Of a DNA stretch of 32,518 nucleotides, positions 11,090 to 15,537 are shown piece after piece. The notes below the pieces were generated by a model. It was not told where the DNA came from and made no database searches. It was given only the letters and a program-made list of their open reading frames with translations. The stretch's first letter is position 1, and each line of letters begins with the position of its first letter. The translations under genes were made by a program, and so were the position numbers. The DNA comes from a virus. The stretch covers positions 1 to 32,518 of IMG/VR virus record IMGVR_UViG_3300021368_001477; one strand, written 5' to 3'.

Positions 11090-12733
11090 TTAAAATGGTA
11101 ATATTTTTAAGTCCTGGTTCTCTAGCGGTTCGTAGTAGCCTCCTTGTTTAAAAACCGGAGCGCATAAAAAGCTACCTTGTTGTCCGTTCTCCTTCCTTTT
11201 AACCTTCTGTATGTAAACTCGAACTACGTCTGATCCGTGTTCGCTTTGGTTGTTCATTTCTCTAAATATCGTAATGCAATTATAAGCTTTATTAAAAAAG
11301 TCGGAGCTGCCGCTTATATCGTATGGCGTCGGTACTGCGTATCTGCCGTCCTTGGTTTCTAGTTTTCTTGGGTGTGCTACCAGAAATAAGTGAGTTCCTG
11401 TCTGCTGCACAAATTGTGTTATCTCGGATAAGATTCGGCCTACGTAGCTGTGGTCTTTTTGTGCTGAATGGTCGAGCATATTGTAGGGGTCAATAACCAA
11501 AACGTTAACGCCTTTGCTTAGTACTAGCTCTCTAAATTTGTCCAGGATTCCCTTCAGCGTGAGGTTTTCCAGGTCTATCTTTAAGAAGTGGAAGTGTTCC
11601 TTCACAAAATCTTTAACCTCGTTTAAATCGCTTCTGGTGCAGTTGGTCTTTTTGATCTTGTTTGCTATCCTTTTAACGTGTCCTTCGAATGGGAAGCTCT
11701 CCGGCGAGTAAAAGGCCGTCCTAAATCCGTTTTTCATCGCAAAGTTGACCACCACCTGGTCGAGCCAATCGCTTTTGCCGCTATTGGGTATGCCGGTTAC
11801 TATTGTCCATTCTCCAAAGGCCATTTTGAAGAATTTGTCTTCAAATCCTAGGCTGTAGTTCTGGATGCCATTTTCTGAAAAATCCAGGATTGCGTTCCAG
11901 TTCTTCTCCAAATCTATAACGCCTTCGATTGGATATTGCTTTGCTTCCTTCAAAACCTTTCTGAGGTATTCTGCTCCTTTGTCGATTAGGATCTCGTTTG
12001 CGTCTTTGTAGTTGGCGTTGTCAACGTATCTGCATTTGAATCTGCCGAGTCTTCTGGCGAGTTCATTTCTCAGCTGAATGCCTGCCTCGTCGTTGTCCGT
12101 GAATATGGTAATCTGTTCTTTGTCTTTAAAGTATTCGTAGCAGTTGTCCAGGTATTCTAGTTTGCCGCTTTTGGTCGCTCCGTTTGGCACCGAAACCACC
12201 GAATAAATCCCTGCTTCGTAAAGGCTCAAGGCGTCCATTTCGCCTTCCACAATGTAACAATGATCGACCTCCTTTATGTTGTCTAGGCCGTAAAAAATAA
12301 GCTCAGCGTTTTTAACGAGTTTAAAGTTCTTCTCTGCGTCTCGGTATTTAACGTTGATGAGCTTTCCGTCTCGGTAGTAATTAAAATTAATCGCTGATCT
12401 GTTTGCCTGGACTTGTGGGAAGTATTCTCTGGTTTGAGTTATCTGCCAATTGACCAGGGTGGTCTCTGATATTCCTCTGGTCTTAAACCATTCAATCATC
12501 CGGTCTGTGAGTGGTGCTTTTATTTCCTCTGGTAAAGTGTAGGCCTGCTTCTCTTTAAATTTAACGTTTCCGTTCCATCCGCAATGGTGGCAGAAGTAAG
12601 TACCTAGTTCGGTGTTAACTGATAAGCAGGGGTCGTTTTTCTTGGTTCGCTCTGGTGAGCATTTTGGGCATTTGACTTTTTGCTGTCCTTTGTTCGGTTT
12701 GATCTGGATGCCCAGGTCGATGAATTCTTGCAT
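11090..12733 (-). CDS. Primase-helicase (zinc ribbon, TOPRIM, RecA-like helicase)
   Basis: A 547-residue bifunctional replication enzyme of the T7 gp4/Twinkle type. The N-terminal zinc ribbon has C22, C25, C48 and C51. The TOPRIM primase core shows IVEGEMDAL (161-169, E163) and FTDNDEAG (211-218, D213/D215). The helicase has Walker A GIPNSGKS (314-321), Walker B VLVIDP (411-416), LVAHPRK (451-457) and a basic KVKRKENGQQG loop near 510-520. It would unwind DNA at the fork and prime the lagging strand. With no phage DNA polymerase in the window it probably recruits the host replicase. A TAAGTTTG box lies 22 nt before the start, within the end of the preceding gene. Confidence 0.93.
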   Translation of the reverse strand: MQEFIDLGIQIKPNKGQQKVKCPKCSPERTKKNDPCLSVNTELGTYFCHHCGWNGNVKFKEKQAYTLPEEIKAPLTDRMIEWFKTRGISETTLVNWQITQTREYFPQVQANRSAINFNYYRDGKLINVKYRDAEKNFKLVKNAELIFYGLDNIKEVDHCYIVEGEMDALSLYEAGIYSVVSVPNGATKSGKLEYLDNCYEYFKDKEQITIFTDNDEAGIQLRNELARRLGRFKCRYVDNANYKDANEILIDKGAEYLRKVLKEAKQYPIEGVIDLEKNWNAILDFSENGIQNYSLGFEDKFFKMAFGEWTIVTGIPNSGKSDWLDQVVVNFAMKNGFRTAFYSPESFPFEGHVKRIANKIKKTNCTRSDLNEVKDFVKEHFHFLKIDLENLTLKGILDKFRELVLSKGVNVLVIDPYNMLDHSAQKDHSYVGRILSEITQFVQQTGTHLFLVAHPRKLETKDGRYAVPTPYDISGSSDFFNKAYNCITIFREMNNQSEHGSDVVRVYIQKVKRKENGQQGSFLCAPVFKQGGYYEPLENQDLKILPF

Positions 12734-12749: not shown

Positions 12750-13154
12750 TTAATCCAAACTTAAGTAATAAGCGTGCTTCTCTGGTAATAAATAAACGCT
12801 TTTTTTTATTTTTTTTGTTTGCCATAGCGTTTTGTCTGGGCATTCTATTTGTTCCTCTTTTAAATTAAAAAGCCTGTTCAGCCAAAAAATAAAAACGCCT
12901 TTTGGGTCGCTTACTAAATATAGGGCGTGGTCTGATGCCTCCGTTAGTTTTTCGTATTTGTAGCGTTCTATCATTTTGGTTTGGTAGTACTGCTGTCGGA
13001 TCTTGATCTCAATTATGGCCTCTGTTCCTTTCGGAGTTCTGCCGTAAGCATCCCAATGTTCGAAGCTGTCGCCAATCCACCAGAGCTCCCATCCTCGGTT
13101 GTTGAGCATCTCGACCAGGGTTCGTTCTAGTATTTCGGTTATTTCCTTATTCAT
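12750..13154 (-). CDS. PD-(D/E)XK nuclease-like protein, 134 residues
   Basis: A small protein with a nuclease-like core. D35 in HWDAYGRT and E49-I-K51 in AIIEIKIRQ fit D-x13-E-x-K, and an early glutamate-rich helix (ITEILERTLVEML) fits the fold. The rest has alternating strands (HALYLVSDPKGVFIFWL). A junction-resolving, repair or restriction-type function is possible. It overlaps the preceding gene by 4 nt and lies directly upstream of the primase-helicase, which favours a replication or repair role. The fold call rests on motif pattern alone. Confidence 0.62.
   Translation of the reverse strand: MNKEITEILERTLVEMLNNRGWELWWIGDSFEHWDAYGRTPKGTEAIIEIKIRQQYYQTKMIERYKYEKLTEASDHALYLVSDPKGVFIFWLNRLFNLKEEQIECPDKTLWQTKKIKKSVYLLPEKHAYYLSLD
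12756..12763 (-). promoter_or_regulatory. Possible -7 box (TAAGTTTG) upstream of the primase-helicase
   Basis: An exact TAnnTTTG match ending 22 nt before ATG and followed by an AACAAACAAAACAAAACA leader like those of the small-gene promoters. No clear -33 box. Confidence 0.38.
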
Positions 13155-13417
13155 TTTATGCGTTGCAGTTCCTTGTCCTGGAAAGTCTCCAGGATGTCGT
13201 TCCTGTAAAGGTTTAAAAATATTTTGTAATAAGGGATGCCTTCCTTGTTGGTGTTCACCAATCTCTGAAGGCTAAAAAAGTGTTTTTTCCAGAACTTGTC
13301 AGCTCTGGCCTGCTTGCATAAAAAATAAGTCAGCCGGCTTGATATGCCTTGTTCTTGGTCAAGCGTTTTTATGATTCTTGTCCATTCGTGTTTCTGTCGA
13401 TCTGTTTTTGGCTGCAA
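13151..13417 (-). CDS. Uncharacterised basic protein next to the initiator, 88 residues
   Basis: Not recognised. A basic, aromatic-rich protein (MQPKTDRQKHEWTRIIKTLD, later KFWKKHFFSLQRL). Its start overlaps the initiator gene by 49 nt in another frame and its stop overlaps the next gene by 4 nt. A small basic protein directly after an initiator could be a helicase-loading or DNA-binding partner (compare the lambda O-P order), but nothing in the sequence proves it. Confidence 0.65.
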   Translation of the reverse strand: MQPKTDRQKHEWTRIIKTLDQEQGISSRLTYFLCKQARADKFWKKHFFSLQRLVNTNKEGIPYYKIFLNLYRNDILETFQDKELQRIK

Positions 13418-13860
13418 ACTTGGAGGAATAATTCGGCTATGTGCTGTAGGGCGGTGGTGTAAATTTCGGCAGTCGTTTCCTCTCTCTCCTCTATATTAAA
13501 TTTATTATTATAATATTTATTATTATTATATAAAGGGTGGACATTTTTGTCTAGGGGGGCAGGACGTTTTTGTCTAGGGAGGGTGGACATTTTTGTCGCC
13601 TCTATTTTTATGATCCGCTTCTTTTTTTCGGCATCAAATTCGGTTTTAACGTATGCCCTGTTTTCGAGTTCCGTCAGCCATCTGGTTATGGTTCTTTTTG
13701 AAACTTTGTAAAGTTTAGCAAAGTGTTGGTTTGTTGCCCAGGCGTATCCTTCCTTATTGGCTAGTGCTGTCAGCTCTGCGTAGAGCAGCTTCGCATTGGG
13801 CGTTAGTTGGTCATCGTATCTTACCTCAGCCGGTAGGATAGCATAATTCGAGGGCTTCAT
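13369..13860 (-). CDS. Replication initiator-like HTH protein with the origin inside its gene
   Basis: A 163-residue protein with an N-terminal winged-helix-like region: YDDQLTPNAKLLYAELTALA (about 15-34) and a recognition-helix-like HFAKLYKVSKRTITRWL (about 46-62) followed by LENRAYVKTE. This layout is common in phage replication initiators (HTH_36 / replisome organiser type). The middle, about residues 95-125, is low in complexity (ending YNNNKYYNNKF) because its DNA carries three iterons and a pure A/T tract, as in lambda O. The C-terminal segment is helical and may contact a helicase or loader. The leader is AACAAAACAAAACAAA before ATG. Confidence 0.75.
   Translation of the reverse strand: MKPSNYAILPAEVRYDDQLTPNAKLLYAELTALANKEGYAWATNQHFAKLYKVSKRTITRWLTELENRAYVKTEFDAEKKKRIIKIEATKMSTLPRQKRPAPLDKNVHPLYNNNKYYNNKFNIEEREETTAEIYTTALQHIAELFLQVCSQKQIDRNTNGQES
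13492..13597. other. Probable replication origin (iterons plus A/T tract)
   Basis: Three 17-bp iterons at 13535, 13558 and 13581 lie next to 13492..13534, which is 43 bp of A and T only. Iterons plus an easily melted tract inside an initiator gene is the lambdoid origin plan. The 23-bp period is not a multiple of three, so the repeat is not a protein repeat. Confidence 0.7.
13535..13597 (-). repeat. Three iterons at 23-bp spacing
   Basis: Units at 13535..13551, 13558..13574 and 13581..13597. On the minus strand the first and third are GACAAAAATGTCCACCC and the middle is GACAAAAACGTCCTGCC. Each contains a GAC(A)...(T)GTC half-palindrome, as expected for a dimeric HTH protein site. Confidence 0.85.
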
Positions 13861-13878
13861 TTGTTTTGTTTTGTTTTG

Positions 13879-14121
13879 TTATTTCTCTGGATTCCCTTTC
13901 ATCGAATTTAAAAAGTCATCCAATTCCTCGCATAAAAAGGCTACCTGTTCTGCCTCAATATCTCGGTCTTCAAATATAAAAAAAAGCAGCTCTATTATCA
14001 ATTCGTACTCGGTTTGGGTGTAGCTGCCGATGTATTCAAATTCTAAGTTTTCTATCGTTGCGTCGGTTCGCCATATCTTCTGTTCCGTCTGGTTGTAATA
14101 AATCGGTTTAGATTTTGGCAT
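13879..14121 (-). CDS. Uncharacterised acidic protein, 80 residues
   Basis: Not recognised. The C-terminal half is strongly acidic and helical (IEAEQVAFLCEELDDFLNSM) and the N-terminal part is beta-like (IYYNQTEQKIWRTDATIENL). It overlaps the VRR-NUC gene by 14 nt. A small acidic protein in a replication operon could be a DNA mimic or a partner-binding protein; this is speculation. Confidence 0.68.
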   Translation of the reverse strand: MPKSKPIYYNQTEQKIWRTDATIENLEFEYIGSYTQTEYELIIELLFFIFEDRDIEAEQVAFLCEELDDFLNSMKGNPEK

Positions 14122-14497: not shown

Positions 14498-14801
14498 TGA
14501 GCTTGCTTTCTCTTGTGTATTCTGCTGTAAATTTAGCAGGTATTGTGTGTTCGATTTGGTGTTCTTGGCAAAACTTAATTATTTTTTGATAATCTGCCAA
14601 ATTAAAAACAATTCCCACCTCCGGTCTTGGCTGTGGAATTTGTCTGTTTTTAAATCGTTCTATAATCTGGCTTAGCTTTTTATCGTTAATCTGGTAGTGT
14701 TCCTTCAGTCGCTCTGCTCTTATGGTTTGGTTCCAATATTGCGCTCCTATCGTTTTGTAATTGAGCCTGGTTTTTTTAGAGGTAGATTTCTCCTTTTTCA
14801 T
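14439..14801 (-). CDS. Uncharacterised lysine-rich protein, 120 residues
   Basis: Not recognised. A basic protein with a lysine-rich N-terminus (MKKEKSTSKKTRLNYK), a possible helix-turn-helix-like part around ERLKEHYQINDKKLSQIIER, and a VGIVFNLADYQKIIKFCQEH segment. It overlaps the exonuclease gene by 26 nt upstream and the nuclease gene downstream, so it belongs to the recombination block. DNA binding is likely from composition but not shown. Confidence 0.68.
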   Translation of the reverse strand: MKKEKSTSKKTRLNYKTIGAQYWNQTIRAERLKEHYQINDKKLSQIIERFKNRQIPQPRPEVGIVFNLADYQKIIKFCQEHQIEHTIPAKFTAEYTRESKLNEKNQPIPKIYEQGGQAPE

Positions 14802-15537
14802 TGTATCGGTCTCCTCTTAATCCTGTAATGATTCCTTCTTCCTTGTAAAGCTTATAAAACTGCCAGGCTTCCTTTAATGCCTTTCCTCCTTCTTCGATGA
14901 GGTCGTCGTCTAAAACGTAAACCTCTACTCCGTATGGCGGTCTGGTTTCTACTGCTAAAAATCTAAACTCTCGCACCGGCACGTTGCAGACCTCTGAATA
15001 AAAAACGGCTTGTAATGGGTAGCCGTATTTCCTGGCATCTCGTTTAAAAGCTCTGCGTTCTGCGTCTTGGCAGGTCTTGATGTCGCTTATCCATTTTCCT
15101 TCTCTGCTGATGCAATCTGGGCGCACTCGCACTCCTATGCCGTCTATGTTTGTAATATGGCTCAGCTCGATGTGTCCGTCCATATATCGGTGCGCTGTTT
15201 TGTGATCCCAAAAGTTGCGCTCTATTTGTTGGTACATTTCGAGCTCTTCCTGTTTAATTATAATTTTCCCTGGATGTTCCTTTTCTATGGCTGCCTTTTC
15301 TTCCTTCCCTTTCTTGGTTCGAAGGTCTCCGTTGAAAGCTATAAATTTTCGCTCCAGGTAGGTGTTGTCCTGGAGGATGTCGTGTACGTTTGTTCCAATG
15401 GTTAGGCTTTTGGTTTCCATTGGTGGTTCGTTTAGCCAATGCCAAACGCTTTTTTTATAAATCTTTTTTAGAGCCGAGGAGGATACCTCGGCTCTTGTGT
15501 GGTAAGCCTGTATTGATTCATTTATTTTTTTGATCAT
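14776..15537 (-). CDS. RecE/Exo VIII-like PD-(D/E)XK exonuclease
   Basis: A 253-residue 5'-3' exonuclease candidate. Visible core: GTNVHDIL (48-55, H52), HIELSH (E124 region), VRVRPDCI (136-143, D141), SDIKT (151-155, D152 and K154) and YGYPLQAVFY (171-180, Q176 and Y180). These match the H, D, D-x-K and QxxxY motifs of RecB-like nucleases. It would resect double-strand ends to give 3' tails for the annealing protein encoded two genes upstream, with the SSB-like protein between them, a two-component phage recombination system. Confidence 0.88.
   Translation of the reverse strand: MIKKINESIQAYHTRAEVSSSALKKIYKKSVWHWLNEPPMETKSLTIGTNVHDILQDNTYLERKFIAFNGDLRTKKGKEEKAAIEKEHPGKIIIKQEELEMYQQIERNFWDHKTAHRYMDGHIELSHITNIDGIGVRVRPDCISREGKWISDIKTCQDAERRAFKRDARKYGYPLQAVFYSEVCNVPVREFRFLAVETRPPYGVEVYVLDDDLIEEGGKALKEAWQFYKLYKEEGIITGLRGDRYNEKGEIYL

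Follow-up and report, generated by a model that had tools for sequence, protein, structure and literature searches.

A putative replication origin inside an initiator gene

The window analyzed here, a viral DNA of 32,518 nucleotides (IMG/VR record IMGVR_UViG_3300021368_001477, positions 1 to 32,518), encodes on its minus strand a helix-turn-helix (HTH) protein of the HTH_36 family whose gene contains three tandem palindromic repeats (iterons) adjoining a tract of pure A/T. Based on sequence comparisons, array and tract very probably constitute the replication origin of the phage, located inside its own initiator gene. This assignment is based on the triple repeat and A/T tract, which are beyond chance expectation, and on the match of the HTH_36 protein to replication-initiator PHROGs. 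Further, paired units retrieved by DNA alone mostly land in initiator genes while those of a decoy rarely do, the layout recurs in 18 of 19 named phages, and residue 56 of the protein covaries with the iteron half-site. Units also fall in all codon phases, their spacings fit helical phasing and the A/T-rich side is mostly consistent. An iteron-type origin in this gene had been proposed in a preliminary description of the sequence; layout, protein family, recurrence and residue-56 covariation support the proposal, with origin activity itself standing as a prediction. The array consists of the following elements:

13586–13597, minus strand: core of iteron 1, GACAAAAATGTC (unit 13581–13597)
13563–13574, minus strand: core of iteron 2, GACAAAAACGTC (unit 13558–13574)
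13540–13551, minus strand: core of iteron 3, GACAAAAATGTC (unit 13535–13551)
13492–13534, no strand: pure A/T tract of 43 base pairs (bp), putative DNA-unwinding element adjoining the iterons on the side that encodes the C-terminus

The three 17-bp units start at 13535, 13558 and 13581, with start-to-start distances of 23 and 23 bp, exactly as previously described. Also as described, the two outer units are identical over 17 bp (18 bp in the register of the repeat tool) and contain an exact GACA-N4-TGTC palindrome; the middle unit matches them at 14 of 17 positions and carries one change in the palindrome (GACG...TGTC, plus strand). The adjoining 43 bp without G or C could likewise be confirmed and represent the longest A/T run of the window, the runner-up being 24 bp long and the maximum in 300 base shuffles of the window 32 bp. 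None of 5000 dinucleotide-shuffled versions of the gene, and none of 200 of the window, produced a triple as good as this one, and the rest of the window contains nothing more than scattered single units with one mismatch. Because the initiator gene sits on the minus strand, the order along the gene is HTH, iterons, A/T tract, C-terminus. In gene orientation, the cores are read in codon phases 2, 1 and 0, encoding the peptides TKMS, RQKRP and LDKNV. The use of three codon phases indicates that the array is not a peptide repeat and that selection acts on the DNA, in agreement with the earlier suggestion.

By analogy with lambda, we infer that the initiator binds the iterons, that the strands open and a helicase is recruited, and that the site is active as an origin. 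The three GACA-N4-TGTC iterons would be bound by the winged-helix domain of the initiator, probably with one dimer per palindrome, and the 23-bp spacing, corresponding to about two helical turns, would place all bound units on the same face of the helix. Filled sites may then load strain on the adjoining 43-bp A/T tract, which would open, and the phage primase/helicase encoded downstream would be brought to the opened DNA.

The HTH_36 initiator

Three features of the initiator are relevant here:

13369–13860, minus strand: open reading frame (ORF) of 163 amino acids with an HTH_36 winged helix, probable N-terminal part of the initiator
13660–13698, minus strand: recognition helix, residues 55–67 in the AlphaFold model (R56, T59, R60)
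13151–13417, minus strand: ORF with the probable C-terminal domain of the initiator in another frame, based on similarity to the relatives L590 and L050

The host gene had been put forward as an HTH initiator candidate, and its product does match replication-initiator families. The 163-amino-acid protein passes the curated cut-off of HTH_36 (PF13730; E 2.6e-14, 53.2 bits, cut-off 25) and matches the replication-initiation PHROGs phrog_19658 (E 3.4e-26) and phrog_270 (E 2.9e-23). AlphaFold predicts a confident winged helix at residues 11–86, with a mean pLDDT mostly above 90, followed by a low-confidence linker that is encoded by the iterons and A/T tract. The iteron-encoded linker is poorly conserved as a protein segment. 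Foldseek matches of the model are winged HTH proteins, including the Rep-type initiators 4pql, 4pt7 and 5kbj, which we take to be RepA_N proteins. A Pfam scan of the 163-amino-acid protein gave no match to RepA_N (PF06970), so that similarity is confined to the fold level. Phage_rep_O (PF04492) is not matched either, and the matches to "replication initiation O-like" PHROGs are weak.

A peptide-based search of IMG/VR returned no near relatives of the initiator protein. The relative L590 is 41% identical to the 163-amino-acid ORF in an alignment extending to residue 145 and retains the iterons as well as a 39-bp A/T run. The ORF at 13151–13417 resembles the C-terminus of the intact L590 initiator (33% identity over 80 amino acids) and the C-terminal domain of the L050 initiator (36% over 74 amino acids). 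As this domain shares one reading frame with the HTH in L590 and L050 but is found in the next ORF here, the 163-residue ORF probably covers no more than the N-terminal portion of the initiator, and the natural protein probably comprises about 240 amino acids.

A shared array design in related initiators

IMG/VR was searched for pairs of GGACA-N4-TGTC units using the DNA pattern only, and initiator ORFs were called with a hidden Markov model (HMM) of the HTH domain. Among the matches listed, 72 of 107 distinct viral loci lie inside HTH initiator ORFs. A non-palindromic decoy of the same letters yielded 40 matches in the whole collection, and 3 of its 26 distinct loci fall inside an HTH initiator ORF. 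Replication-initiation families dominate a PHROG scan of the ORFs containing the listed GGACA pairs, and a Pfam scan agrees. In bacterial genomes, the triple pattern is found inside HTH initiators of Pseudomonadota, Bacillota, Planctomycetota, Actinomycetota, Bacteroidota, Acidobacteriota, Nitrospinota and Armatimonadota as well as in one Saccharibacteria bin. The GACA/TGTC unit is, on these pattern searches, widespread in predicted initiators of phages and prophages across at least eight phyla, which contradicts the initial impression that the iteron sequence is specific to one phage group.

The spacing of units peaks at 21–24 bp, with a steep drop at 20 and 25 bp, and additional peaks are found at 32–34 and 53–54 bp. 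These peaks would correspond to two, three and five helical turns and fit helical phasing. Units in related arrays occupy all three codon phases (178/53/97), and the commonest spacings, 22 and 23 bp, are not divisible by three. A/T content is higher in the 45 bp on the 3' side than in the 45 bp on the 5' side for 78 of 102 arrays (p 9e-13).

For the reverse test, 19 named phages were picked by protein similarity alone and their loci inspected for tandem repeats with at least 13 of 15 matching bases and a spacing of 21–24 bp. Such repeats are present inside the initiator gene of 18 phages, compared with 3 of 37 other ORFs from the same loci. Half-sites differ among these phages: phi39:1 and LLC-1 carry GACA/TGTC, c5 and PMBT4 TTAACA/TGTTAA, and others are seen too.

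It should be noted that, of the 67 distinct triple arrays of GGACA-N4-TGTC in bacterial genomes (within L242–L323), 42 lie outside detected HTH initiator ORFs. Several of these recur many times per genome at a spacing of exactly 22 or 23 bp, for example L250, L259 and L308 (Prevotella/Segatella) as well as L245 and L282 (Sulfurimonas), and perhaps represent another repeat system.

Covariation of residue 56 with the iteron half-site

GGTCA/TGAC, initially chosen as a decoy, was dropped as such when it proved to be a second iteron class and then served as the contrast set: 44 of 88 distinct GGTCA-N4-TGAC loci are in HTH initiators, with the same spacing as the GACA class. Both classes were retrieved by iteron DNA alone, and representatives were chosen by clustering at 70% or 50% identity. 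At 70%, residue 56 is Arg or Lys in 76/76 GACA representatives among the matches listed, while the 30 GTCA representatives carry Glu (12), Ser (10), Arg (4), Lys (2), Pro (1) or Ala (1). At 50%, Arg or Lys is found in 53/53 GACA representatives, again among the matches listed, versus 3/21 for GTCA. The z-score of residue 56 is 26 at 70% and 18 at 50% clustering, followed by residue 59 of the same helix with 10 and 6. R56 is located near the start of the recognition helix in the AlphaFold model, and R60 is nearly invariant across both classes. Shared ancestry should lift all columns, and the lead of residue 56 therefore points to a contact between this residue and the iteron half-site. The six Arg/Lys exceptions in the GTCA class indicate that neighboring residues matter too.

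Other half-sites were considered. GGCCA/TGGC was rejected as an iteron class, its matches being mostly coding repeats (4 of 99 in initiators). For GGGCA/TGCC, 12 of 49 loci are in initiators; as these cover few families, no rule was drawn for G at this half-site position. A third half-site class, GGCA/TGCC, was observed in one related initiator set with the recognition helix GRATLQRSL (L464, L471, L492, L503, L504, L518 and L521).

On balance, we favor the view that HTH_36 phage initiators throughout bacteria share one origin design, with palindromic iterons spaced by about 22 bp within the initiator gene and an A/T tract downstream, and a readable code. In this code, residue 56 (Arg/Lys or Glu/Ser) would contribute, together with its neighbors, to the choice of the second half-site letter, as in GACA or GTCA. 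Outside model phages, mapped phage origins are scarce. If layout and residue-56 rule hold, origin and initiator specificity could be read from sequence for many uncultured phages and prophages, and competition of two elements for origins would be predictable from sequence alone. Recurring linker peptides in initiators (DKNV, TKMS, GQKCP) would then be explained as by-products of the DNA site. Specialist attention is best directed at the shared iteron and the residue-56 rule. No earlier description of these iterons or of a residue-56 code was found in the open literature searched, and one may exist among subscription papers or bioRxiv preprints.

Comparison with known systems

The layout itself is already known from lambda, while initiator family and site class differ. 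In lambda, the O protein binds four palindromic iterons within its own gene, an experimentally proven ori, and two iterons plus the A/T tract form the minimal unwinding unit (PMC7466680). The lambda iterons start at 39034, 39054, 39078 and 39101, at successive distances of 20, 24 and 23 bp. Like lambda O and the O proteins of Stx phages, the window initiator combines an N-terminal DNA-binding domain with a mid-gene, here predicted, origin of palindromic iterons and an adjoining A/T-rich tract (PMC7466680). Both the tandem arrangement in the initiator gene and the position of the A/T tract on the C-terminal-coding side are lambda-type traits. However, lambda O belongs to PF04492/TIGR01610, a match that was recovered for lambda O, whereas the window protein belongs to PF13730, and the half-sites are of the CCTC/GAGG type in lambda compared with GACA/TGTC here. 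The earlier parallel to lambda O consequently holds for layout and proposed way of working but not for protein family.

In the RepA_N plasmid pSK41, the ori is likewise located inside rep, and the ori-coding linker is dispensable as protein (PMC5703833). The proposed origin described here shares this location, and the above Rep structures are among the best Foldseek matches of the window protein; unlike RepA_N initiators it has no PF06970 match, and the structural similarity is limited (Foldseek E about 2e-3, TM-score about 0.4–0.5). The hybrid initiator of pPR9 carries a PF13730-assigned N-terminal domain on a pSK41-type C-terminal domain, and autonomous replication was reported after the PF13730 domain together with a roughly 500-bp ori-bearing segment had taken the place of the pSK41 equivalent (PMC5703833). 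pPR9 is too diverged for the HTH-domain HMM and its repeats are weak (best pair 12/15), which excludes it as a sequence match and leaves it as a loose functional precedent.

The HTH_36 initiator of Cellulophaga phage phi39:1 shares 50% identity over 107 amino acids with the window protein, has Arg at the position of residue 56 and contains GACA-N4-TGTC units in its gene, 21 and 22 bp apart, with an A/T-rich 3' flank. It differs in that a DnaB-type helicase gene directly follows the initiator, while the window primase/helicase is encoded further down. Lactobacillus phage A2 was discarded as a precedent, its annotated origin going with a primase system of another type.

Alternative interpretations

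Several observations weigh against an origin in the initiator gene. Cumulative GC skew, which had been suggested as a check for an origin at 13.5 kb, is shallow, lowest near 5 and 9 kb, and has no sharp extremum there. In the reverse test, phage iLp1308 has no repeat beyond chance. A tree of the short HTH domain (57 remaining columns) contains 16 switches between GACA and GTCA classes on the best tree and 1 on supported branches; with such poor branch support this test of independent switches was underpowered and was set aside, so that identity clustering and the comparison with other columns carry the case for independent covariation. Further, an apparent frameshift near 13414–13428 separates the two parts of the initiator in this record, and the 163-residue protein of the earlier description is probably truncated by it. 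Finally, a promoter-like pair (TAGACA, 17 bp, TATAAT) lies over iteron 3 and the A/T tract at 13525–13553 on the minus strand; passage of transcription could matter at this place, as transcription through the origin does in lambda.

This pair, running along the coding strand from 13553 to 13525 with 11 of 12 consensus matches, would suit a scenario in which the repeats are operators through which the HTH protein controls an internal promoter for the downstream replication genes, replication starting elsewhere. Repressors are common among winged HTH proteins, and a profile search ranks MarR/SlyA regulators as the closest solved structures. However, any A/T-rich stretch should contain matches to the sigma-70 consensus (1.9 per shuffle), and this consensus, which is not the usual promoter consensus of Bacteroidota, may not be that of the host of a Bacteroidota-like phage. 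The best PHROG matches of the protein are initiators, and the combination of a phased tandem array and a one-sided A/T tract inside an initiator gene characterizes lambda ori and pSK41 (PMC7466680, PMC5703833). An operator function appears quite improbable. The frameshift, with the C-terminal domain of the relatives encoded in the next ORF, could alternatively mean that the initiator is broken and the iterons are a relic of an origin that is dead or damaged here. We regard this as unlikely: repeats, A/T tract, HTH and recognition helix are all intact, both halves are still recognizably similar to intact relatives, and a single indel in a metagenome-derived record may stem from faulty assembly or, with lower probability, from programmed frameshifting rather than from a mutation. 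That the repeats serve the protein, as a peptide repeat in the linker, would agree with the position of the units in a segment of low conservation but is contradicted by their three codon phases, the use of all phases in relatives and the predominant spacings, and can be considered almost untenable.

Neighboring genes and likely host

The enzyme probably loaded at the proposed origin is encoded downstream of the initiator:

11090–12733, minus strand: primase/helicase (phrog_239 DNA primase/helicase, E 3.4e-88; Toprim and DnaB_C)

Lambda hands DnaB over through P; the window phage instead encodes this primase/helicase, and no lambda P-like loader was detected among the window genes scanned. Named-phage matches of the initiator are Cellulophaga phi39:1 and phages of Firmicutes, in which the initiator gene usually adjoins a gene for a DnaB helicase or a DnaC/DnaI-type loader. 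The terminase has its best matches in phages of Bacteroidota, and so does the primase/helicase among named hosts. IMG/VR relatives of the primase/helicase (about 60% identical; upstream regions L566–L592) mostly lack the window-type HTH, L590 being the only one to have it. In the relatives inspected, the C-terminal domain is similar but is preceded by another, diverged N-terminal HTH, which would suit an exchange of N-terminus and origin as a single module.

Directly before the initiator start codon, at 13861–13880, a short run of a five-base unit (AACAA-type, coding strand) is found, with no clear Shine-Dalgarno sequence. Further upstream of the initiator, at 14776–15537 on the minus strand, a DUF3799/exonuclease VIII-like protein is encoded (Pfam and PHROG matches), which suggests a recombination module in the same early operon.
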